The translations under genes and the position numbers were made by a program. Below, in pieces: positions 16,257-31,689 of a DNA stretch of 64,000 nucleotides. The stretch covers positions 310,001 to 374,000 of the forward strand of contig NZ_QHHQ01000004.1 in the NCBI RefSeq assembly GCF_003258595.1, given 5' to 3'. Position 1 is the stretch's first letter. Every line of letters begins with the position of its first letter. Source of the DNA: Acuticoccus sediminis (GTDB lineage: Bacteria; Pseudomonadota; Alphaproteobacteria; Rhizobiales; Amorphaceae). The notes below the pieces were generated by a model. That model was given only the letters and a program-made list of their open reading frames with translations, did not search any database and was not told the DNA's origin.

Positions 16257-17309
16257 TCAATCGTTGGCAAAAGCGTCGGTGATCCGGTTCGATACGTTCG
16301 GGCTCGTGTGTTGTTCGAACGCGCCCGATCCGGCCGGCTGGGCCTGCGTGGCCGTCACCCCCGCTGACGGTTGCGGTGTCGTCAGTTCCTGAAACGCGCT
16401 GTCCTGCGGCGAGCCAGCGGCCGGTGCGGCCGCCCCCACGTTCGGACGGGGCGTCGTCTCGTAAGATGAACTGGAAGGACGAGACGCGACCTGGCTCGCC
16501 GTGCCCGGACGCAAGGTGTCGAGGGCGGCGCGGATGACGCTGGCGCGGGTCGCGAGATTGTAGCTGCCGGCGTCGCTCTTGCTCAGGCCGCCGGTGTGGT
16601 GGAGGCCGACGGGCTGGCGATCGACGTTGACGATCAGCCCTCCGGACGAGCCCGGCAGCGTATCGCAGACGTGGCGCAGCTCGGTCGGCCGCGGCGACGG
16701 GTCCTTGTAGGCGAAGCACTCGTGCACGGTCATCATCTTCGGGCGGCCGGCCGGGTGGTGCAGGATGGTCAGGCGCTCACCGGGCTGGGCGTCGGCGGGC
16801 TCGAAGTCGAGCGGCGTGAGGCCGGCGGGCAGCGGCGCGGTCAGGCGGACCAGCGCGAAGTCCAGCTTGTCGTCGGCCATCACCGGCCGGGTCTCGATGG
16901 GGATCCGCACCGCGTCGGGGTCGTCCTCGTCCTCGTAGCCGAGGAGGATGGAGGCCTGACGGATGTCCTCCCCGAAGCCCGGGATGCAGTGATAGTTGGT
17001 CAGGACGAGGTCGGTCGCGACGATCGTCCCGGTGCAGGTCGACGTCAGCTCGCGCCCGTTGACGCTGATCAGCCGGTCGAGACGGACGACGCGGTCGGAC
17101 ACCTCGCGCAGCTTGTCGTCCGTCCGCAGCCGGCCGACGCGCTGGAAGATGTCCCCGCGCTCGATCACCTGTGAGACGGCCGAGCCCTGGCTTTCACGCA
17201 GACGGAGCGTGACCTGGCCGTAGTCGGACCCTGGAAACGTGCTCGGCTGGGCGAGGGCCGAGGCCGTCCCGATCGCTGCGAAAAATAGCCCAGCAAGACC
17301 CAAGCGCAT
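16257..17309 (-). CDS. Exported trypsin-like serine protease
   Basis: A 350-residue S1-family protease with a signal peptide ending near residue 20 (ASALAQ). The catalytic triad is visible: His in LTNYHCIPG, Asp in KLDFALVRL and Ser in LPGSSGGLIV. Cysteine pairs near TSTCTG/NYHC and HECFAY/RHVCD are likely disulphides. After the protease domain (to about 270) comes a low-complexity Ser/Thr/Pro/Ala tail. There is no PDZ domain, unlike DegP. It is the fifth gene of a seven-gene operon that starts next to an exported caspase, so it could be either a substrate or an executor of the caspases; this is inference. Confidence 0.88.
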   Translation of the reverse strand: MRLGLAGLFFAAIGTASALAQPSTFPGSDYGQVTLRLRESQGSAVSQVIERGDIFQRVGRLRTDDKLREVSDRVVRLDRLISVNGRELTSTCTGTIVATDLVLTNYHCIPGFGEDIRQASILLGYEDEDDPDAVRIPIETRPVMADDKLDFALVRLTAPLPAGLTPLDFEPADAQPGERLTILHHPAGRPKMMTVHECFAYKDPSPRPTELRHVCDTLPGSSGGLIVNVDRQPVGLHHTGGLSKSDAGSYNLATRASVIRAALDTLRPGTASQVASRPSSSSYETTPRPNVGAAAPAAGSPQDSAFQELTTPQPSAGVTATQAQPAGSGAFEQHTSPNVSNRITDAFAND

Positions 17310-18923: not shown

Positions 18924-19946
18924 TTAGTAGCGCCTGATGGCCCTCTGTTCACGCACCGTGTCGCTCACGGGTTTCAAGATGCCGAGAGCATCGAGTGCGC
19001 CGAGCGTCACGCCGGGGGGCAGGTGATGGTCCTGCGTGAAGGTGTTCAGCGCCTCGGACCAGCTCTCGCGGAAGTGACCGTCCGCCGGGCCGGGGTGAAG
19101 GTCGGCCCGGATCATCGCCTTCTGCAGCATCGTCCAGTGCCGGGGCGAGAAGAGGTAGGAGATGTCCATCGCGAGCACCGCTTCGCCGTCGCCGGTGCCG
19201 GCGATGGACGCATCCCTGGCGAGGTCGAGCGCGCCCGGCAGGTCCCAGCCGACCCCGAACCCTTCGACCTTGAGGTAGGCGGCGAGCGCCTCGGCGGCGG
19301 GCAGACGGTAGGCGGCGCCGCGCATGGCGATGTCGTAGGCCGCCTCCAGATTGGTGAGGCGGTACTCCATCAGCGCGAGATCGCCGAGCGCGGGGTAGTA
19401 GCCGGCGTCGACGAGCCGGGAGAAGGACTGCCGCGCGGCGATCAGCGTCGAGTAGGTCTCCGGGTCGAGGCGCACCTTGGCGACGGCGGCGAGGTAGCGC
19501 GCGCTCATCCGCTGCGCGGCCGGACCCTTGAGGAGCGACAGGCAGTCGAGCTCGCGCTTGGGATCGGACGGCGCCTTGCACCGGGCGACCTCGCACAGGT
19601 CGCCCGCGCCGTCGCACAGGCCCAGCTCGCTGGCGAGCTTCAGCGCCCGGTCCGGGCTCGGTGCATGCTGCAGCAGCACCCGGACGGCGCCGCGGTGCGC
19701 ATCCGGATCCCACAGCGCGGCGATGCAGTTCGCGGCCGTCCCCAGCGGAAGCTCGGCGACCTGCCGGTCTGACGTGCCGAAGACGTAGCCGAGCGTCCCG
19801 CGCGGCGCCTCGCCGATGCGGGTGCACACGTCCGAGCTCGCCGCCGTGGCCCGGCTCAACGCAACCGTGATCGGTGCCTCGACCGGGCTATGACTGGTCG
19901 CCGGCGCCAGGGCCAGCGCCGCGATCAATGCCAATATCAGGCCCAT
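18924..19946 (-). CDS. Exported protein with peptidoglycan-binding-like C-terminus
   Basis: A 340-residue protein with a short signal peptide (MGLILALIAALALAPATS). The middle is alanine-rich and helical, resembling Sel1/TPR-type repeats (about 110-260). The C-terminal 60 residues, including LQKAMIRADLHPGPADGHF and SEALNTFTQ, resemble the PG_binding_1 repeat (x-AL-x-GxxPGxxDGxFGxxTxxAxxxFQ). The start overlaps the L,D-transpeptidase gene by 59 bases and has GGAG six bases upstream, so the two are coupled. The likely role is docking to the wall beside the transpeptidase. The middle region is unassigned. Confidence 0.7.
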   Translation of the reverse strand: MGLILALIAALALAPATSHSPVEAPITVALSRATAASSDVCTRIGEAPRGTLGYVFGTSDRQVAELPLGTAANCIAALWDPDAHRGAVRVLLQHAPSPDRALKLASELGLCDGAGDLCEVARCKAPSDPKRELDCLSLLKGPAAQRMSARYLAAVAKVRLDPETYSTLIAARQSFSRLVDAGYYPALGDLALMEYRLTNLEAAYDIAMRGAAYRLPAAEALAAYLKVEGFGVGWDLPGALDLARDASIAGTGDGEAVLAMDISYLFSPRHWTMLQKAMIRADLHPGPADGHFRESWSEALNTFTQDHHLPPGVTLGALDALGILKPVSDTVREQRAIRRY

Positions 19947-20562
19947 GCCCTACTCCATACTCGACGACGGGCTCGAAACGGACACGCATACCGTTGCCGA
20001 TACGCTCGAACAGGGACTGCACTTCACTCTCATAAAGCGAGACGCAGCCCCACGTCGCCGCCCGGCCGATCTTGCGTGCATCATTGGTGCCATGGATGAG
20101 GTAGTACTTCCAAGTCAGATTGATGGCGCGCGAGCCGAGCGGGTTGTCTCCGCCGCTCGCGACATATGCCGGGAGGTAGGGGTCGCGCTCCCGCGCCCGC
20201 GGCGTCGGCGACCAGGACGGCTCGACGCGCTTGAAGGTCACCCGCGTGCGGCCGAGCGGGTGGTGCGCCTCCGGCCGGCCGACGGCCACGCGGTAGAGCT
20301 CCACCGTCTCCGGCAGCTCCTCGCTGCGCCAGAAGAGCCGGCGGTTGCGCATGTCCACCACGATGTTCTCCCCCGGCGCGAACACCGGCGCGGCACTGGC
20401 CGGCAGGGTGAGGCGCGACCGCGTCTGGCCGAGGACCATCTCGGTCAACCGCAGCCCGTCCGCCGACGCGGGTGCGGCGGCGGACACGGCAGCAGCGGCC
20501 ATGGCGACCACCAACGCGGCGGTCGGCCCCCTCCCGGCGCGCCCCTTCGCGGCGCGATGCAT
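19888..20562 (-). CDS. L,D-transpeptidase (YkuD family) with variant active-site motif
   Basis: A 224-residue exported YkuD-domain protein (signal to about residue 35). YYLIHGTND supplies the catalytic histidine and TWGCVSLYESEV the nucleophilic cysteine. The usual S-H/S-G-C-I/V-R motif is changed to T-W-G-C-V-S, losing the common arginine. Such enzymes make 3-3 crosslinks or attach proteins to diaminopimelate in peptidoglycan. ATG 20562 has GAGGGG upstream; an ATG at 20586 would add eight residues. It lies 24 bases after the M14-like gene and overlaps the next gene. A different acceptor, or weak activity, is possible given the variant motif. Confidence 0.85.
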   Translation of the reverse strand: MHRAAKGRAGRGPTAALVVAMAAAAVSAAAPASADGLRLTEMVLGQTRSRLTLPASAAPVFAPGENIVVDMRNRRLFWRSEELPETVELYRVAVGRPEAHHPLGRTRVTFKRVEPSWSPTPRARERDPYLPAYVASGGDNPLGSRAINLTWKYYLIHGTNDARKIGRAATWGCVSLYESEVQSLFERIGNGMRVRFEPVVEYGVGHGPDIGIDRGAGPGAGDQS

Positions 20563-20586
20563 CGGGCGGCCCCTCAACGCGGTCAT

Positions 20587-22182
20587 TCAGCCGCCGGCGA
20601 CGGGGCTGTAACCGAGCGTTTCCAGAAACCGGTCGACCATCTCCCGCTGCACCGTCGACCCATGCTCGGCCTCCACGTTGAAATACGGACGACCGTCGTT
20701 CAGGACGACGTGGTTTGAGAAGGAGCAGTCGCTGTTTTTCCGCGTCACATGCTCGTGAACCACGCTGAGACCGGCCTCGTTGAGCTTCTGGCGGATCGCC
20801 GTCGCGTCCCTGTCGTCGGCGATCGGTCTCGGTCCGGCGATGTAGATGAGGTCGTCCGGATCGCCGAAGCGACCGGAGGAGATCGGGTAGCCCTTCTCCT
20901 TGTCGGTCCAGACCCTGGCGGTGATGCCGCCGCCGTTGGTGTTGTTGTGGGCCGAGAAGATGTGCGGCCGGCCGACGAAGAGGCCCATCACGAAGGCGGT
21001 ATAGGTCGGTGTCGCCCGGCGGATGCGGCAGGGCCGCGCGTCCGCGTCGGTGGTGGCGAAGTAGCGGTTGGGGTCGATGCCGCGATAGAAGCGCGTCTCG
21101 TCGCCGGCGACGGCCACCATCCGTCCGCCATAGCGCGCGACGGCGTAGACGGCGGCGTCGAACGCCTCCGCCTCGTTGTCGTGCGGCAGGTACCAGACCG
21201 GTCCGTCCGGATGGTTCCGGTTCTCCACCGACACGAACGTCCACGTGATGGCGCCTTCGGTGAGCCGCACGCGGCCGACGCAGAGCCCTGCCCTTGCGAT
21301 CGCGCCCCGGTTGCGCCGGACGTCCGGGTCGGCGTCGCCCCCGGCGTCGTCGCAGCCGGATGGCGTGGCGACCGCCGCGGCGCCCGGGGCAGCGCTGGCG
21401 GCGGCGGCCTTCAGCGCGGCGCGCACGTCCGGGGCGACGGGGTTGGGTCGCGGCAAGTTGATCGGCGACAGGTCCGGCGTCGCCCCTTCGGGAAAGAACC
21501 CGGCGTCGGCGAGGCTGCGCCGCAGCTCCGGCGGGACCGCCGCCGCGTCGGGCCCGGCAGACCCTGCATCCGCATCGGCCGGGCCGACACCCGCGATCGA
21601 GGCGACCGGCGGCGTCCGCAGGTCCCCCTTCTCGGCCGCCGCTTCCGCCGAGCCCTGCGGCGCGGTCTCGCCCGCCGCTCCCGTGGCGTTTTCCGGCGCA
21701 GCTCCGGCGGCCGCCTCGGCCGCGGGCGCCGGGGCCGGAGGCGCGAAGGGGGATGCGGGATCGAGCGCCGCCGGCTCGTCGGCCTTGCCCATGCGCATCA
21801 CGAAGGCGCGGGCGAACACCTGGTCGTGCATCTCCGACGGGCTCGCCCGAAGCTCCGCCGCGAGGGAGGCGAGATAGGCCATGGGATAGGGACCCGCCTC
21901 GGTGTTGAAGGGCGAGACGTCGATCCGGTAGGCGCCGCGCGCCCGCGCGTCGTTGCCGTAGTCGTCCTCGCCCATCCGGCCGAGCCGCAGCAGCGCGATG
22001 CGCACGTAGCAGGCGAGCTCGCTGTCCGTCGCGACGCCCAGCAGGAGATCGGCGAGCCGAACGTTGTTGGCTTCGGCCCTCACGGTGTTGCAGGCCTCGA
22101 GGTCGAAGGCCGCGGCGCCGGTGGTCGCCGCCGCGACCATCGCCGCCCCCGCGATCGCCGCCGCCCGCAATAAGAGGCGCAT
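20587..22182 (-). CDS. Exported M14-like zinc carboxypeptidase/amidase candidate
   Basis: A 531-residue exported protein (signal to about residue 25), with an N-terminal helical part, a long Ala/Pro-rich linker (about 135-260) and a C-terminal catalytic-looking domain. The latter has H334-D-N-E337 (HxxE), I369-D-P-N-R373, H412 in SAHNNTNGGG, and E504/E506 in FNVEAEHG. The order and type match the M14 metallocarboxypeptidase layout: HxxE, NR, third-ligand His, general-base Glu. The substrate may be peptidoglycan stem peptides, since the next gene is an L,D-transpeptidase. The ATG at 22182 has GGGGAGCG upstream; it is the first gene of the operon. The family assignment is my own reading of motifs and needs profile confirmation. 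Confidence 0.65.
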   Translation of the reverse strand: MRLLLRAAAIAGAAMVAAATTGAAAFDLEACNTVRAEANNVRLADLLLGVATDSELACYVRIALLRLGRMGEDDYGNDARARGAYRIDVSPFNTEAGPYPMAYLASLAAELRASPSEMHDQVFARAFVMRMGKADEPAALDPASPFAPPAPAPAAEAAAGAAPENATGAAGETAPQGSAEAAAEKGDLRTPPVASIAGVGPADADAGSAGPDAAAVPPELRRSLADAGFFPEGATPDLSPINLPRPNPVAPDVRAALKAAAASAAPGAAAVATPSGCDDAGGDADPDVRRNRGAIARAGLCVGRVRLTEGAITWTFVSVENRNHPDGPVWYLPHDNEAEAFDAAVYAVARYGGRMVAVAGDETRFYRGIDPNRYFATTDADARPCRIRRATPTYTAFVMGLFVGRPHIFSAHNNTNGGGITARVWTDKEKGYPISSGRFGDPDDLIYIAGPRPIADDRDATAIRQKLNEAGLSVVHEHVTRKNSDCSFSNHVVLNDGRPYFNVEAEHGSTVQREMVDRFLETLGYSPVAGG

Positions 22183-22371: not shown

Positions 22372-25077
22372 ATGTGCCGCGCCCTGCGCGTTTTCGCTGT
22401 CCTGATCGGCCTGATCGCCATTGCTCCGGCGGCCTGGAGCGATGCGCGCACGGACGCCATCACCGCAGCGGTCGAAGCGGGCGACAAGCGCTACGCCATC
22501 CTCGTGGGCGTCGGCGACTACCGGCAGGCGCCGCCGGTCGCGTTCGTCAAAGAAAATCTCGACCAGATGGAAGCGATGATGACCGACGTCTTCTTCGTGA
22601 AGCAGTCGAACATCCGTCGCATCGAGGATCCGGACCGGCTGGACCTCGCGGAGATCTTCGGTTTCGAGAAGGGCGAACCCGGAAGTCTCGCCGGCCTCGA
22701 CATCAAGGAGGACAACGCGGAGCTCTTCGTCTACTTCGTCGGCCACGGCTCGCGCGACCTGCGGGCCTCGGGCACGTCCGACGCGGCCTCGGCGGAGGGC
22801 TTCCTCCTCGCCACCAACTCCCGCCCGTCGACGCTGCGCCACACCGCCTACTCGTACGACCTCCTCGTCGAGAACCTCGACAAGGTGCAGAAGCAGCGCT
22901 TCCCGAAGGGCCGCGTCGTCGTCTTCATGGAAAGCTGCTTCTCGGGCGAGACCGCGGACGGCGAGCCGCTGAACCCGTCGATGGCCGCCGCCCTCCTCGC
23001 CCCTTCGGAAGGGTGGGACGAGACCGCCGACCGGTTCGACGTCATCGCCGTCTCCGCCGCCGCGGCCGACACGCCCGCCTACTGGGACCACCAGCGCCAC
23101 GAAGGCGTCTTCACCGGCGCGCTCGTCACCGGACTGCGCGGCGAGGCGGACACGCGGGCCGGCAACAACGACGGCGTGGTGAGCTTCGAGGAGCTGCGCG
23201 ACTGGCTCTCGACCTCGGTGCCGAGCCGCACCGCCCAGCTCGGCAAGGGCCGGCAGACCCCGCAGGTGTCCGAGCATGCCGAGGGTGCACTCGTGCGCCT
23301 CGCCAGGCTGGAGCCGAGCGGCGGCGGCACCGGCGACGTCGAGAACCTCAGCCTCGAGTTCGAGCTGCGCGAGCTGAACCTGCGCGCCGATCAGGTCGAC
23401 GCGCGCGACTGGCCCGCCCTCAGGACGCTCGACCAGGACATCAGCGACTTCGTGAACCGCTGCGACGGCGACGGCTGCCGCGTCTTCCTGCCGACCATCA
23501 TCCCGCTGCGCGAGGTGACGGAGATGCACCTCTCACGCTGCAAGGCCGCCTCGGAGATCGCCGCCAAGTGGATGAGCGCCGGCTCCTTCCGCAGCGTGGA
23601 GCGGCTCGACGCGCTGTGCGTGGCGCCGGACGTCGTCGCGGCCTGCGTCGCCGGACAGGACCCGGCCTCGCGCGCCTGCACCTGCGTCGCCGACCCGTTC
23701 GCGCCGAGCTGCACCGCCGAGGCGGTCGCGGCCTCCACCTGCCCCGCCGACGCCGAGGCCGCCGCGGCCCTCGCCGCCGAGACGCGGAGCCTCGCCCCGC
23801 TCGACGACTTCGCCGCCGCATCGCCCGACTGCGCCGCCGAGACCGCCGCGACGGTGGCGAGCGCGCGCGAGGCGGTGTGTGCGGCGGGCGAAAACGACGG
23901 GGGACCGGTGCCGGCAGGTCTCGAGGCGTGTCCTTTCGCGGTCGCCCTCCGGGACCGGCAGTCGGCTCAGGACGCCTGCATCGCCGCCTACCAGGAGGCG
24001 AAGACCGGCCCCGCCGGGACGCTCGCCCGCTTCCTCACCGAGCACGAAGCCTGCCCGCAGTACGTCAACGCCGTCGCCGAGCGCGACGGGCGCATCAACC
24101 GGGCGATCCAGGCCGCCGAGATCGCCCGCAGCCGGGCCGAACGCGAGGCCGCCGCGGCGACGCTGGGCGAGCTCTCCACCACCTTCAGCGCCACCCTGTC
24201 GGACGCGGCCGTGAAGCGCCTCACCGACCTCGGCGAGACACTCGCCGTCCCCACCTGCAGCGCCGCCTACAAGGACGCAGAGAGGGGCGGAGCGGACGCG
24301 CTCGCCCGGTTCGCGACCGAGCGGTCCGACTGCCGCACCGAGGTGGCCGCCGCGCGCGACCGCCTCGCCGGGCAGCGCTGCCGGGACGAGTACGAGAAGG
24401 TCGACGCCAGGGATCCGGTCGAGCTCTACCGCTTCGCCCAGGGCCATCCGAGTTGCCCGACCGAGACGGCGGATGCGGAGCGGCTGATCGAAAACATCGG
24501 ACGCGAGTGCATCTACGACGCGCAGAACGGGTTGAGCGCCCAGCTCGACGTGATCAACACGGCGCTGGAGAAGCTCGGCGGCTGCCGGCGGATCACGCTG
24601 CTGTCGCCGGCCCTCGACGGCCCCTACGCCGGGGCGGAGAAGACCCTGCGCAACCTGCAGCGCGCCCTCGCGCTCGCCGCGGCGCAGCAGGCGGCCGACC
24701 CGCAGCCCAAGCCCGGCCCCGGCTACACGCCCCCTCCGAGCTACCAGCCTCCGGCGAACACCCCGGCGCCCAGCTCCGCCCGCTCCGTCGCGATCTACTC
24801 CGGCGTCGACTTCTACGGTTCGGACCTGACCTCGACGGGTCTCGGCGCCTCGTCGACGATGGAATGCGCGCAGATCTGCGCCAGCAACAGCCGGTGCAGC
24901 CACTTCACCTACAACGCCAAGGCCAATGTCTGCTTCCCGAAATACGGCTATGGCCGCGTCGAACAATTCCGCGGCGCCCACTCCGGGATCATCCTCTATC
25001 CGGGCCAGAGCGCGCCGGTCCTGCGGGACGACAAGGGCCGTGTCGCCACGGCCACGCGAACGAGCCAAGTATACTGA
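22372..25077 (+). CDS. Exported caspase-family (C14) protease with PAN-like C-terminus
   Basis: A 901-residue protein with a signal peptide ending near residue 23 (APAAWSD) and a caspase p20 domain (about 35-300). The catalytic dyad is H125 in VGHGSRD and C189 in MESCFSGE, 64 residues apart. The long middle (about 310-780) is helical, alanine-rich and studded with cysteines in repeated blocks. The last about 80 residues, with Cys in SSTMECAQICASNSRC and VCFPKYGYG, resemble a PAN/Apple ligand-binding domain. A Pro-rich linker precedes it. GAGGT lies before the ATG. It acts outside the cytoplasm, unlike defence-associated caspases. Its substrate is unknown; the trypsin-like protease and wall enzymes of the divergent operon are candidates. 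Confidence 0.88.
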   Translation: MCRALRVFAVLIGLIAIAPAAWSDARTDAITAAVEAGDKRYAILVGVGDYRQAPPVAFVKENLDQMEAMMTDVFFVKQSNIRRIEDPDRLDLAEIFGFEKGEPGSLAGLDIKEDNAELFVYFVGHGSRDLRASGTSDAASAEGFLLATNSRPSTLRHTAYSYDLLVENLDKVQKQRFPKGRVVVFMESCFSGETADGEPLNPSMAAALLAPSEGWDETADRFDVIAVSAAAADTPAYWDHQRHEGVFTGALVTGLRGEADTRAGNNDGVVSFEELRDWLSTSVPSRTAQLGKGRQTPQVSEHAEGALVRLARLEPSGGGTGDVENLSLEFELRELNLRADQVDARDWPALRTLDQDISDFVNRCDGDGCRVFLPTIIPLREVTEMHLSRCKAASEIAAKWMSAGSFRSVERLDALCVAPDVVAACVAGQDPASRACTCVADPFAPSCTAEAVAASTCPADAEAAAALAAETRSLAPLDDFAAASPDCAAETAATVASAREAVCAAGENDGGPVPAGLEACPFAVALRDRQSAQDACIAAYQEAKTGPAGTLARFLTEHEACPQYVNAVAERDGRINRAIQAAEIARSRAEREAAAATLGELSTTFSATLSDAAVKRLTDLGETLAVPTCSAAYKDAERGGADALARFATERSDCRTEVAAARDRLAGQRCRDEYEKVDARDPVELYRFAQGHPSCPTETADAERLIENIGRECIYDAQNGLSAQLDVINTALEKLGGCRRITLLSPALDGPYAGAEKTLRNLQRALALAAAQQAADPQPKPGPGYTPPPSYQPPANTPAPSSARSVAIYSGVDFYGSDLTSTGLGASSTMECAQICASNSRCSHFTYNAKANVCFPKYGYGRVEQFRGAHSGIILYPGQSAPVLRDDKGRVATATRTSQVY

Positions 25078-25201
25078 GGAGTTTACGTTACCAAGCGTTT
25101 CCGGCGGTCGAGGGTGGAACGAAACGCCCAGGTTCGGCATCACGTCCTGCGAGTCCCCGCCAATCCTACGACCGACGCCCTTTATTAACCGCGAGTGATT
25201 G

Positions 25202-26692
25202 ATGTCCCGACGGATCCTGCAGGTGGGCTGTGCCGCCATCGTCCTTGCGGCGGCCGTCGCGGCAATTGCGCCGACGGCGGCGCAGAAGCACGTCCCCCTG
25301 CCGCCGGAACAGCCCGCCTCGCGCGGCGGTGAGTTCCTCGCCGCCGAGGCGCCGGCCGCCGGCATCGCCATGCGCCCCCGGATCGGCGCCGGCCCCGGCG
25401 CGCCGGAGATCATCGCATCGCCCCGCCCGGCCGCGACAACGGCTGCCGCGACCGCCCGCCCGCCCCTCACCCCGCTCCCGCTGAAGATCGCCCCGGGCGC
25501 CGACCCGACACCCGGCGCGGCCACGCCGTCCGCCGACGACGCGGATCTGCCGCTCCTCGGTGAGGGCGAGCGCCCGGCCGGGGACGGCGCCCTCGTCACC
25601 GTGGTCCCCCGCGCCAAGCCGGAGCGCCCCGGCCGCCGCCGCTTCCCGTCCTATGTCGCCGGCGAGGGCGACCCGCCGCTCGAGGTGATGGTCGGGCAGA
25701 TGCTCATGGTCGGCTTCCAGGGCGACGACGTCGACCAGCCCGGGCCGCAGCGCATCGCCCGGCACATCGAGGCGGGCCGCCTCGGCGGCGTGATCTTCTT
25801 CCGCCAGAACGTGAAGAGCGAGGCGGCGGTGAAGCGCCTCACCCACCTTTTCCGCGCCTCGGCCCCGCCGGGCCTTCCCGTCCTGATCGCGGTCGACCAG
25901 GAAGGCGGCCACGTGCAGCGGCTCAACACCGAGGTCGGTTTCCCGGACACCCCGTCGGCAAAGCGCGTCGCGGCGCGCGGCGAGGCGGCCGCCAAGCGCA
26001 TCTACACCCGCCTCGCCCGGGACCTCGCGGAGTGGGGGTTCAACGTCAACCTCGCGCCGGTCGTCGACCTCGGCAACCAGCGTGACAACCCGATCATCGC
26101 CAAGCTCGGCCGCGCCTTCTCCGGCGATCCGGCGACCATCGCGTCCTACGCCTCCCTCTTCGTCGAGGCGCACCGCGACGCCGGTGTCCTCACGGCGCTG
26201 AAGCACTTTCCCGGCCACGGCTCCTCGCGCGGCGACACCCACAAGGGCTTCGTCGACGTCTCCTACTCGTGGACCGAGACGGAGCTGACGCCGTACCGCG
26301 ACCTCGTCGCCGAGAACATGGTCGACATGGTGATGGTGGCCCACGTCCACCTCGCCAAATACGGACCCGGCGGGCTGCCGGCTTCCCTGTCCGAGCCGAT
26401 GATCGAGGGGTTGCTGCGCGGCAACATCGGCTTCAACGGCGTGGTGATGTCGGACGACCTCGAGATGGGGGCGATCCGCAAGCTGGGTTCGCCCATCCGC
26501 ATCGCCAAGCAGGCGATCCTGGCGGGCAACGACATCCTCGTCTATGCCGGCGGCGCTGCCGGTCGCGGCGACCTCGTCGGCGAGCTGCAGGCGCGTCTCC
26601 AGGTGGCCGCCCGGGACCCGGTCTTCGCCGCCCGGATCAAGGACAGCTACCACCGCGTCATGACCATGAAGGCCAAGCTCCCCGGCGAGTGA
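25202..26692 (+). CDS. Exported GH3 beta-N-acetylhexosaminidase (NagZ-like)
   Basis: A 496-residue glycoside hydrolase family 3 enzyme. It has a signal-like N-terminus (to about ATAQ at 28) and a Pro/Ala-rich region to about 160, then a GH3 domain with VDQEGGHVQRL, KHFPGHGSSRGDTH (the His-Asp acid/base pair of NagZ-type enzymes) and the nucleophile in VVMSDDLEMGAI. NagZ removes GlcNAc from muropeptides and is normally cytoplasmic in Gram-negative bacteria; the export signal and linker here point to the periplasm or surface. I start at ATG 25202; TTG 25199 is adjacent. It lies 124 bases after the caspase gene on the same strand. Confidence 0.87.
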   Translation: MSRRILQVGCAAIVLAAAVAAIAPTAAQKHVPLPPEQPASRGGEFLAAEAPAAGIAMRPRIGAGPGAPEIIASPRPAATTAAATARPPLTPLPLKIAPGADPTPGAATPSADDADLPLLGEGERPAGDGALVTVVPRAKPERPGRRRFPSYVAGEGDPPLEVMVGQMLMVGFQGDDVDQPGPQRIARHIEAGRLGGVIFFRQNVKSEAAVKRLTHLFRASAPPGLPVLIAVDQEGGHVQRLNTEVGFPDTPSAKRVAARGEAAAKRIYTRLARDLAEWGFNVNLAPVVDLGNQRDNPIIAKLGRAFSGDPATIASYASLFVEAHRDAGVLTALKHFPGHGSSRGDTHKGFVDVSYSWTETELTPYRDLVAENMVDMVMVAHVHLAKYGPGGLPASLSEPMIEGLLRGNIGFNGVVMSDDLEMGAIRKLGSPIRIAKQAILAGNDILVYAGGAAGRGDLVGELQARLQVAARDPVFAARIKDSYHRVMTMKAKLPGE

Positions 26693-27463: not shown

Positions 27464-28528
27464 ATGGCTATACGGTTAGGGACGAGCATCGCGGACAAAC
27501 TCGTCGGCACCCCACTTGCGGACTATATTCGCGGCTATGCCGGAGACGACACACTCGTCGGTGACGACGCGGGCGGCGCCGGCAACGACATCATCGTCGG
27601 CGACGAAGGCAACGACATCATCTATGGCGGCGTCGAAGAAGGCGCCGACACCGGCAACGACGTGATGATGGGCGGCGACGGCGACGACTCCATCTTCAGC
27701 TACGGCGGCCGCGACTACATCGACGGCGGCGACGAGCTTCTCGGCGGCGACGGCGACTTCGCGCTGATTGACCGTTCCGACGCATCGAGCGCCCTCACGG
27801 TCTACGGCACCGGCTTCGGCGGGCTCATCCCGGCCGCGCGCTTCAGCCCCTCGAGCGCGGCGGTCATGAGCGACGGCACGATCTTCACCGACATCGAGCG
27901 CCTCGAGCTCATCGCCACCGACTATTCGGACCGGCTCTACCTCGCCAACAACTTCGGCCTCGATGAGACCGAGATCCACGCGGGCGCAGGCGGTGACGTC
28001 GTTCAGACCGGCTCGAGCGTCGACAAGGTCTGGGGCGAGGACGGCAACGACTACATCGGCCTCGGCGCGGGCGACGACACCGCCTACGGTGGCGTGATGA
28101 ACGACACCGTCGACGGCGGCGCCGGCGACGACGTCGTGCGCGGCGGCGATGGCAACGACTCCCTCCTCGGCGGCGATGACAACGACGAGCTGTTCGGCGG
28201 CGACGGCAACGACATCGTCTCGGGCGGCGACGGCGACGACGAGCTGCACGGCGGCGCCGATCAGGACACCTATATCGGCGGCGAGGGCGCGGACTCCTTC
28301 TACCTCGCCTACGGCACGATCGACTTCGACCTGATCGCCGACTACGAGCCGGGCGAGGACACCATCATCGTCAGCTTCGTCGGCATCGAGGAGGAGGACG
28401 TGCTCATCGACGTCCTGAACCCGGCGACCGGCCTGGTCTCCGTCGCGGTCGACGGGATGGAATCGGAGTACTTCTTCGCCGACGGCATCACCAGCTCCGC
28501 CGAGATCGAGACGCAGTTCCTCGTCTGA
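27464..28528 (+). CDS. RTX-type calcium-binding secreted protein
   Basis: A 354-residue, very acidic protein with no N-terminal signal and no cysteines. GGxGxDxxx nonapeptide repeats occur in two blocks: near residues 24-60 (GYAGDD, GGAGND, GDEGND) and about 195-285 (GGDGND, GGDDND, GGDGDD). They fold as a calcium-binding beta-roll. Such proteins normally leave by a type I system using the C-terminal end; no T1SS genes are in the window. No enzymatic domain is recognised in the middle (about 90-180). AAGGA precedes the ATG and a hairpin terminator follows. It could be a surface or matrix component, or a calcium-dependent partner for the envelope proteins around it. Confidence 0.82.
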   Translation: MAIRLGTSIADKLVGTPLADYIRGYAGDDTLVGDDAGGAGNDIIVGDEGNDIIYGGVEEGADTGNDVMMGGDGDDSIFSYGGRDYIDGGDELLGGDGDFALIDRSDASSALTVYGTGFGGLIPAARFSPSSAAVMSDGTIFTDIERLELIATDYSDRLYLANNFGLDETEIHAGAGGDVVQTGSSVDKVWGEDGNDYIGLGAGDDTAYGGVMNDTVDGGAGDDVVRGGDGNDSLLGGDDNDELFGGDGNDIVSGGDGDDELHGGADQDTYIGGEGADSFYLAYGTIDFDLIADYEPGEDTIIVSFVGIEEEDVLIDVLNPATGLVSVAVDGMESEYFFADGITSSAEIETQFLV

Positions 28529-28613: not shown

Positions 28614-28866
28614 CGCGTCGCGCCGCCCGCGCCGCGTCGCCCTCCCGAGGGGCCCGGTGAAGGGCTTCGGTGTGTCATGCGCCAATATCAATTTTAGCGT
28701 GCATTCCCATCCGTCCCCCGGCAAGGTCCTCGCGCCGCCCGCGAGGCACGCCGTGCCGGTCCCGGAAACGCTCCCACATGCCGGCACTCCGGGCGATCCG
28801 CGCGGCGCGGGGCTTACACGAGCGCGCCGGATTCGTCACAATCCGGAGAGGCGTGCGTTGATCGCT

Positions 28867-28895
28867 TTGTCCAGCGCCGGGACAATCACTAGTGT
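28867..28895 (+). promoter_or_regulatory. Weak promoter candidate for caspase 2
   Basis: TTGTCC (28867-28872) and TAGTGT (28890-28895) are 17 bases apart, with four and three consensus matches. They lie about 38 bases before the chosen ATG. This is a visual match only and could be chance. Confidence 0.28.
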
Positions 28896-28932
28896 TATGT
28901 GCACGCGACCGGGTTTTTGGAGCAGAGGGAAC

Positions 28933-31689
28933 ATGGCGAGGATCGTGGCACGGATCGGATGGTCGCTCCGTCTCGCCGTTCTGGCGCTCGTGGCCACTGC
29001 CGCGCTGATCTCGGCGGCCGCCGCCGAGACCGACAAGGAGCGCCTCGAACGACTGATCGCGGAAGGCAACAAGCGCTATGCCCTGCTCGTGGGCATCGGC
29101 GACTATTCCGAGACCGTGCCCGTCAAGTTCGTGCAGGAGAACCTCGACGCGGTGACGCGCCTCCTCACCGAGGACCTCTTCATTCCCGCCGCCAACATCG
29201 TGCGGATCGAAAATCCCGACAACATCTCCCTCGCCGGCACCTTCGGGTACGACAAGGGCGAGCTGGGCGACTTCGGCGGCCTCGACATCACCCATCCGGA
29301 CGCCGAGCTCTTCGTCTATTATGTCGGTCACGGCTCGCGCGACCTGCGCGGCTCGAACACGACCAACGCGGCCGAGTCGGAAGGATACCTCCTCGCCACC
29401 AACTCGCGCCCCGCGCTCCTCTCCCGCACGGCCTACTCGTACGACACGCTGCTGGCGAACCTCGACGCCTACCAGAAGCGCAATTTCCCCGACGGCCGCG
29501 TTGTTCTCTTCATGGAGAGCTGCTTCTCGGGCGAGACCAACGACGGCGTGGCGCTCAACCCGTCGATGGCCGCCGCGCTGCTGGCGCCGACCGAGGGCTG
29601 GGACGAGCCGCAGAGCGAGCACGACGTCATCGCCATCGCCGCGGCCGGGGCCGACACCCCGGCCTACTGGGACGAGGAGCGGCACATCGGCCTCTTCACC
29701 GACGCCCTCGTCGCCGGTCTCTCCGGCCGTGCCGACAGCGAGGGGGGCGACGGCAACGGCACGATCACCGTCGCCGAGCTCGGCGACTTCCTGCGCCAGT
29801 CGGTCTCCGCCCGCGCCCGCACCCTCGGCAAGGGCGACCAGCGCCCCCAGGTGCAGGAGCAGGACCTCGAGAAGACCCTCGCCAACCTCGCCCGCACGCC
29901 GCAGCCCACCGCCTCGCCGCTGATCGAATTCGAGGTGAAGGACCTCGAGGCGCGCCTCGCCGAGATCGACCCCCGCAACCTTCCCGGCCTCAAGCGCCTG
30001 TCGCGCGACGTCGAGGCGTTCCGCAACAGCTGCGGCGACGACTGCCGGAGCTACCTCGCACGGCTCATCCTCCTGCAGGACGACCTGCGGCGGCAGGTGG
30101 ACCTGTGCGACGCGGCCGCCACCATGTCCGGCCGCTGGCAGGAGCGCGGCGCCTTCAACCGCCTGGCCGAGTTCGACCAGATCTGCGCGCCGCCCGACAT
30201 GGTGGACGCGTGCGTCGCCTCCCGCGACCTCTCCTCCAAGGCCTGCCAGTGCCTGCGCGACCCGGAGGACGAGAGCTGCCAGATCGATCCGGCGCAGATC
30301 TGCGCCGACGGGCTGACGTCGGCGACCGAGGCGGGCGTCGCGCAGACGAGCCTCGACCCGCTCCTCCAGTTCCAGCGCCTCCAGCGCAACTGCGCGCGCG
30401 ACACCGAGGCGCTCGCCGCCGCCCGGGAGACGGTCTGCGCCGCCGCCGAGAAGGGCTTCGACGCCAACGGACCGATCGCGCCGGGCATCGCCGCCTGCCC
30501 CTTCGCCAAGACGATCGCGACCCAGCGGCGCGAGGCGGAACGCTGCCGCAGCGAGTTCGCCGCCGTCGAGGCGCAGTCCGGCGACCACACCCGCCTCGCC
30601 AACTTCATCGCCGAATACCCCAACTGCGGGCAGATCTCCGACGCGCGGGTGCTCCTCGACCGCCGGATCGCCGATGCGCTCGGCAAGGCGGACACCGCCA
30701 GGACCCCGGCCGACCGCAAGCGCGTCCACGGCGACCTCACCGCGATCCGCAACGCCTTCGAAGGCTCGCTGTCGCGCGCCGCCCTCGCCTCGATCGACGA
30801 CGCGATCTCGGCGCTCGACGAGACCGCCTGCCCCGTCGCGCTGCGCAGCGCCAAGGAGAAGGGCCTTGCAGCGCTCAGCCAGTTCGTGCGCGAGCGGCCG
30901 AACTGCGAGGCCGAGATCGCCGAGGCGCAGAAGCTCGTCGCCACCGGCGAGTGCCGGGCCCAGTTCGAGCGCGTGTCGGGCGACGACGCCACCCAGCTCA
31001 TCGCCTTCACCGAGCGCAACCGGAGCTGCGAGGCGGAGGTGGCGAACGCCAACGCCCGGCTCGAGACGCTGGCGACCCAGTGCATCCACCGCGCCGGCGA
31101 GTACGAACGCGCCGAGCCGCGCGAGGCGATCCGACGCTATCGCGCCTGCAGCTCCACCTTCGGCGGAACGTTCGACTGGGTGGGCACGCAGGCGAGCAGC
31201 AGCCTCGCCCGCCTCAACCGGACGATCGTCTGCGCCGACGCCTTCGACGCCATGCCGCACGACGACGCCGACGCGCTGATCGCCTTCATCGGCCGCTTCA
31301 AGGCGCAGTGTCCGAGCTACACCGAGGAGGCGGCCCGTCTCTACGCGGCCCTCCCCGCCGCGGTCCCGGACGTGACGCAGTTCGACGGCATCTACACCGG
31401 CCAGCGCGGCTACACGGAGCCGGGCCGCAAGAGCCCCGACCGTTCCTGCCTCGACCGGTACGAGTTCACCGCGACCGTCGAGAACGGCGAGATCCGCTTC
31501 GATAGCGACGACCGCTCCTGGACCGGAAGCGTCGGCGCGGACGGGGCGATCCGCATCACCCGCGAGGGGATCAGCCCGCGGACCAAGTCGGAGATGTGGA
31601 TCTCCGGCAGCCTGTCGGGCGCCTACGCGCGCGGCGAGATGTTCTCCGGCTACTGCGGAACGGGCTACTTCGAGCTGTCACGCCGCTGA
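28933..31689 (+). CDS. Second exported caspase-family (C14) protease
   Basis: A 918-residue paralogue of the caspase at 22372. The signal peptide ends near residue 35 (SAAAAET) and the p20 domain spans about 45-310, with dyad H133 (VGHGSRD) and C197 (MESCFSGE), again 64 residues apart. The cysteine-rich helical middle is collinear with caspase 1 (shared CQC/CTC blocks, then an ACPFA segment). The C-terminus differs: no PAN-like part, but a 90-residue beta-rich domain starting FDGIYTGQRGY and ending GYCGTGYFELS. ATG 28933 follows AGAGGGA; an upstream ATG at 28897 lacks such a site. It was probably formed by local duplication followed by exchange of the targeting domain. Confidence 0.88.
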   Translation: MARIVARIGWSLRLAVLALVATAALISAAAAETDKERLERLIAEGNKRYALLVGIGDYSETVPVKFVQENLDAVTRLLTEDLFIPAANIVRIENPDNISLAGTFGYDKGELGDFGGLDITHPDAELFVYYVGHGSRDLRGSNTTNAAESEGYLLATNSRPALLSRTAYSYDTLLANLDAYQKRNFPDGRVVLFMESCFSGETNDGVALNPSMAAALLAPTEGWDEPQSEHDVIAIAAAGADTPAYWDEERHIGLFTDALVAGLSGRADSEGGDGNGTITVAELGDFLRQSVSARARTLGKGDQRPQVQEQDLEKTLANLARTPQPTASPLIEFEVKDLEARLAEIDPRNLPGLKRLSRDVEAFRNSCGDDCRSYLARLILLQDDLRRQVDLCDAAATMSGRWQERGAFNRLAEFDQICAPPDMVDACVASRDLSSKACQCLRDPEDESCQIDPAQICADGLTSATEAGVAQTSLDPLLQFQRLQRNCARDTEALAAARETVCAAAEKGFDANGPIAPGIAACPFAKTIATQRREAERCRSEFAAVEAQSGDHTRLANFIAEYPNCGQISDARVLLDRRIADALGKADTARTPADRKRVHGDLTAIRNAFEGSLSRAALASIDDAISALDETACPVALRSAKEKGLAALSQFVRERPNCEAEIAEAQKLVATGECRAQFERVSGDDATQLIAFTERNRSCEAEVANANARLETLATQCIHRAGEYERAEPREAIRRYRACSSTFGGTFDWVGTQASSSLARLNRTIVCADAFDAMPHDDADALIAFIGRFKAQCPSYTEEAARLYAALPAAVPDVTQFDGIYTGQRGYTEPGRKSPDRSCLDRYEFTATVENGEIRFDSDDRSWTGSVGADGAIRITREGISPRTKSEMWISGSLSGAYARGEMFSGYCGTGYFELSRR

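Follow-up and report, generated by a model that had tools for sequence, protein, structure and literature searches.

M14 metallopeptidases carry an HxxE motif between a strand and a helix and have their glutamate base on the last strand, and the Asn144-Arg145 pair of carboxypeptidase A binds the C-terminal carboxylate of the substrate. The oxyanion is stabilized by Arg86 in Csd4 and by Arg226 in BcCCP. The murein tripeptide amidase MpaA is a cytoplasmic enzyme of the recycling pathway. Csd4 and Pgp1 are D,L-carboxypeptidases of Helicobacter and Campylobacter; the metal motif of Csd4 is QxxE, and its Arg86-Asn93-Arg94 set has an Arg to Asn spacing of 7 (PMC4220969), while Arg226-Asn235-Arg236 of BcCCP has a spacing of 9 (PMC3940198). 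The recycling context of MpaA has been described as well (PMC11980594). Here, a window of 64,000 nucleotides from Acuticoccus sediminis (the whole stretch of DNA analyzed) was found to encode a protein whose predicted fold is that of M14 enzymes, yet which fits none of the named M14 families. It thus represents a previously unannotated variant of an enzyme fold that is already known.

The gene (window:20587-22182) is a single intact ORF of 531 aa on the minus strand. The GC contents of codon positions 1 to 3 on this strand are 0.71, 0.56, and 0.90, and the same pattern is found in the neighboring genes. Hence, the minus strand is the coding strand, and a plus-strand ORF at 20749-22173 was discarded as a shadow ORF on the basis of codon-position GC. 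The protein comprises an export signal, a small helical domain, a linker, and a C-terminal catalytic domain (Table 1). N termini of lipobox or Sec type occur among its relatives as well. The helical domain (about 110 aa) was modeled by AlphaFold2 with a pLDDT of 90 and a pTM of 0.84, and gave no convincing match in the PDB (best Foldseek E of 1.9, best VIA-align Z of 3.2). It is present in four genomes of the same genus (G003, G002, G007, and G001), and several relatives of the peptidase are without it. In the catalytic domain, C385 and C486 co-vary, 31 of the 36 aligned sequences having both cysteines and five having neither; such a paired gain or loss is consistent with a disulfide bond, as the protein carries an export signal.

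Table 1. Features of the peptidase, its neighbors, and its paralogue (window positions unless a locus is named).
Feature	Position	Strand	Basis or conservation
Sec-type signal peptide, residues 1-25	22108..22182	minus	translation, read by eye
N-terminal helical domain, residues 26-135, two conserved Cys	21778..22107	minus	alignment A3 and AlphaFold2
Ala/Pro-rich low-complexity linker, residues 136-274 (~140 aa)	21361..21777	minus	translation
M14-fold catalytic domain, residues 275-531 (257 aa)	20590..21360	minus	AlphaFold2, Foldseek, VIA-align
H334-D335-N-E337, predicted zinc ligands (His and Glu), Asp between them invariant	21172..21183	minus	H, D, E 36/36
R364, probable oxyanion arginine	21091..21093	minus	36/36; spacing to N372 of 8
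N372-R373 in D-P-N-R motif, predicted substrate-carboxylate pair	21064..21069	minus	N 36/36, R 35/36
H412, predicted third zinc ligand, within an HxN motif whose N414 is invariant	20947..20949	minus	36/36
E504, predicted general base, last beta strand, YxNxE motif	20671..20673	minus	34/36
C486, probably forming a disulfide with C385 (21028-21030)	20725..20727	minus	alignment of 36
L,D-transpeptidase-fold (YkuD) protein, next in operon	19888..20586	minus	PF03734 E=1.2e-15
Exported 340-aa protein, weak C-terminal PG_binding_1-like stretch	18924..19946	minus	PF01471 E=0.017, below cut-off
NagZ-like GH3 protein, apparent signal peptide	25199..26692	plus	PF00933 E=5e-58
Lipoprotein paralogue locus (own genome, G000:C3); also L066, L067, L068, L069	L070:1148-5831		

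The initial annotation had described the protein as otherwise unfamiliar, with a long linker, and this description holds for both the linker and the sequence databases. Indeed, no significant family match was obtained for the peptidase in Pfam, NCBIfam, or PHROGs. The Peptidase_M14 model (PF00246) did not match the window protein or anything elsewhere in its own genome, and its best score among the 36 relatives, E=0.048, did not reach the cut-off. Likewise, the AstE/AspA models (PF24827 and PF04952) gave no match above cut-off in the window protein or in these relatives, the two PF24827 matches of the genome being different genes. Searches against the PDB with phmmer and hmmsearch returned nothing significant, and no paper on the family was found with the literature terms tried. 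When hhalign was run against sets of M14 and AstE proteins taken from other genomes, all probabilities were below 7%; nevertheless, the best local match to the M14 sets fell mostly on DPNRNF, in register, and in a sub-threshold profile match N372-R373 was in register with the D-x-NRNF of carboxypeptidase B2.

An M14-like fold had been set beforehand as the test of the assignment. The catalytic domain was modeled by AlphaFold2 from alignment A1 with a pLDDT of 95 and a pTM of 0.92, and its best Foldseek matches in the PDB, with E values from 4e-8 and a probability of 1.00 but modest TM-scores of 0.4-0.5, were entries annotated as metallopeptidases and proteins of the AstE/aspartoacylase type. 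These matches included MpaA (4axv) and Csd4 (4q6m, with 4wcm also among the top structural matches). With VIA-align, the top match was the M14D carboxypeptidase 4b6z (Z of 12.5, rmsd of 4.1, 202 aligned residues), and carboxypeptidases A, B, and T followed with Z values of about 12. In BFVD, most of the significant matches fell on viral carboxypeptidases, peptidases, and AstE-like proteins. The overall alpha/beta fold of clan MC was thus recovered by both Foldseek and VIA-align on a confident model. Together, the fold matches and the silent sequence profiles place the protein in the M14 fold but outside the named M14 families.

The catalytic residues proposed in the initial annotation, i.e., H334xxE337, N372-R373, H412, and E504, were all located at the claimed positions and in the claimed order when the translation was checked. 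Residue order in one sequence alone is weak evidence, conservation being the test that matters. Conservation was therefore counted on alignment A1, which contains 36 sequences from two phyla, and reached 100, 100, 100, 97, 100, and 94% for H334, E337, N372, R373, H412, and E504, respectively. The probability that residue-matched random picks would all be at least 90% conserved was about 1.5e-5. The invariant positions of the alignment are H334, D335, E337, R364, D370, N372, H412, N414, and Y500. Among them, R364 was absent from the list of the initial annotation and completes the clan MC series, in which HxxE, His, Arg, Asn-Arg, and Glu are all found and in the expected order; we take it to correspond to Arg127 of carboxypeptidase A, and E504 presumably corresponds to Glu270 of the same enzyme. 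The model places HxxE at the junction of a strand and the next helix, and E504 on the last strand (E226-232 of the model). The predicted secondary-structure positions and the spacing of the catalytic residues fit those of M14 enzymes.

From the conserved set and by analogy with M14 enzymology, one zinc ion would be held by H334, E337, and H412, the zinc-bound water would be activated by E504, and the oxyanion would be stabilized by R364. The free carboxylate of the substrate would be bound by N372-R373, which would make the protein a carboxypeptidase, or an amidohydrolase acting on a carboxylate-ended substrate. The N-terminal helical domain, on its flexible linker, may position the enzyme. 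Export (signal read by eye), predicted fold, and conservation of the catalytic set form the basis of this scheme, in which zinc binding and chemistry are drawn from known M14 enzymes. An M14-type zinc hydrolase is very probable. Sequence profiles thus miss a family in which the predicted M14 active site is complete, and a probable exported zinc carboxypeptidase is lacking from the annotation of these genomes.

The closest described enzymes resemble this protein only in part. Like Csd4, it has the M14 fold (VIA-align Z of 12.1, 183 aligned residues, 14% identity) and a two-arginine arrangement with a close spacing (8 here vs. 7 in Csd4), and the Glu-to-His and His-to-Glu spacings are 75 and 92, vs. 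79 and 94 in Csd4. A YkuD gene is also its neighbor, and H. pylori has a YkuD-fold partner, Csd6. A Csd4 homologue was however rejected: the motif is HxxE in 36/36 sequences instead of QxxE, and nothing follows the peptidase domain, which leaves no room for the beta-barrel and Ig-like domains of the three-domain Csd4 architecture. In addition, it differs from Csd4 by its N-terminal helical domain, its probable disulfide, and the absence of a sequence match. MpaA shares the fold (4axv, Foldseek E=3e-5), but the protein described here carries an export signal and has no sequence match to MpaA. The best VIA-align scores (Z up to 12.5) were obtained with the bacterial cytosolic carboxypeptidases of M14D (4b6z, 4a37, and 3k2k), in which an Arg, an Asn-Arg pair, and a Glu are likewise conserved (PMC3940198). 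Unlike them, the window protein is exported rather than cytosolic, and its N-terminal part consists of a small helical domain for which the PDB gave no convincing match. Finally, the succinylglutamate desuccinylase/aspartoacylase-like enzymes 2qj8, 3fmc, and 6twl gave some of the lowest Foldseek E values (5e-8 to 1e-5), whereas the corresponding Pfam models gave no sequence match.

The genomic context was then considered for the substrate. As proposed initially, the gene stands at the head of an operon and adjoins an L,D-transpeptidase: the YkuD gene starts directly after the peptidase stop codon through a TGA-ATG junction and is itself followed, still on the minus strand, by the gene of the PG_binding_1-like protein and by one that encodes 505 aa. 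Trypsin-like and OmpA-like genes lie beyond. This gene order is common to the sister genome G002, and the gene of the PG_binding_1-like protein is kept beside the peptidase gene in G002 and G003. An intact L,D-transpeptidase neighbor was otherwise found in G002 only, with a remnant in G003, and no transpeptidase relative was detected in the other genomes of the genus within the roughly 5 kb read on each side. A fixed partnership with the L,D-transpeptidase was rejected on the basis of synteny, the partner not lying beside the peptidase gene in most genomes of the genus. The usual motif of these enzymes is SHGC-x-R; the window protein has HGTN...TWGCVSL, of which TWGCVS is kept in G002, and it may be an altered YkuD enzyme judging from its sequence.

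On the other side, the NagZ-like gene is the divergent neighbor of the peptidase gene in G007, G006, and G001, is separated from it by one caspase-like gene both in the window and in G002, and is thus nearby in five of the eight genomes of the genus. Because these genomes are closely related, this context is counted as probably one ancestral arrangement rather than five independent ones. The NagZ-like protein shows KHFPGHG...DTH and matches the NagZ model PRK05337 with E=2e-50, under the 207-bit cut-off. NagZ is usually cytoplasmic; this protein (25199-26692) apparently carries a signal peptide, and its N-terminal part includes a long stretch of low complexity. An ORF at 27464-28528 contains many GGxGxD-type repeats resembling calcium-binding RTX repeats, as read from the ORF list.

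The C-terminal domain was found by protein and profile searches in all 10 genomes examined of the same bacterial family and in 21 of the 297 sampled from the order, of which G290 gave only a weak match that does not cover the catalytic residues. Its occurrence elsewhere is patchy: 3 of 385 genomes sampled from the class and 5 of 398 sampled from the phylum encode it, with the own genome included each time. Eleven Campylobacterota contigs, e.g., from Sulfurovum and Nitratifractor, also encode it, with no obvious cell-wall genes as neighbors. No relative was found in plasmid records, and none of the 37 pattern matches in IMG/VR was confirmed as one. With the YkuD gene kept intact in a single sister genome and an uninformative context in Campylobacterota, the stem-peptide role is only plausible. 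The neighbors weakly suggest a peptidoglycan role, which is the leading proposal for the window gene, with periplasmic stem peptides or fragments as the likeliest substrates. An exported zinc metallopeptidase of the M14 (clan MC) fold acting on such substrates has about an even chance of being correct as a whole, and peptidoglycan as the substrate is given a probability at or slightly below that level. If the enzyme does trim stem peptides, it would provide an exported path to short muropeptides that depends on neither Csd4 nor MpaA.

Among the alternatives, the strongest retains the fold and chemistry and assigns a non-peptidoglycan substrate, the protein being a periplasmic scavenging carboxypeptidase or an N-acyl-amino-acid/amide hydrolase of the AstE/aspartoacylase/DoeB/CphZ type. 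The very diverse neighborhoods of the relatives and structural neighbors such as the aspartoacylase-family 2qj8, DoeB/EutE 6twl, and CphZ 8ein give it some weight, but the YkuD and NagZ-like genes of the own genus and the silent AstE/AspA profiles make it rather unlikely. It appears improbable that the peptidase belongs to a secreted protease cascade or conflict system and that the neighboring caspase-like and trypsin-like proteins remove its N-terminal domain as a pro-domain. Two related exported caspase-like proteins are indeed encoded in the window (22372-25077, with a C-terminal PAN domain, and 28657-31689), together with a trypsin-like protein (16257-17309), and the caspase, YkuD, trypsin, and OmpA neighborhood is also found in G002. 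However, most relatives have neither a caspase nor a trypsin gene beside them, many are without such an N-terminal domain, and PADLOC gave weak matches, none of them for the peptidase.

Compared with the peptidoglycan-directed enzyme, a catalytically silent M14-fold binding protein is very improbable, even though M14 pseudoenzymes such as Ecm14 are known (PMC7706225). Catalytic residues are changed in only 3 of the 36 sequences, E504 being replaced by Thr in L037 and L038 and R373 by Gln in L035, and these three are possibly inactive or altered enzymes from their sequences; the window protein and 33/36 sequences have the complete set. That the motif is coincidental in an unrelated exported protein, a loose HxxE...NR...H...E pattern being present in 1.9% of the shuffled versions of the 257-aa domain and no sequence profile matching, is the least credible reading given the M14 fold matches and the invariance over two phyla.

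Besides the window gene, a lipoprotein paralogue (L002 in the own genome) is found in the own and four sister genomes and forms its own clade with a support of 100/98. It offers a second, testable role for the family, since it follows a YcaO-type gene. The own copy of this gene is SagD-like (TIGR03604, E=3e-42), and the other four were recognized from position and sequence resemblance only. From the sequences, these loci look like a putative, undescribed YcaO RiPP cassette with an M14-fold lipoprotein. A broader scheme can be imagined, in which an undescribed exported M14-fold carboxypeptidase family would consist of a stand-alone, cell-wall-trimming branch and a lipoprotein branch recruited to the YcaO-dependent cassette, where it would process or inactivate a peptide outside the cytoplasm; we consider this scheme speculative and unlikely as a whole. 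A regulator-like gene of about 670 aa lies near the paralogue, and all but one of the five loci contain a small ORF that weakly resembles NHLP leaders, has a conserved end around LGT[MA]AVLGC, and terminates in LGCCRP or a variant of it.
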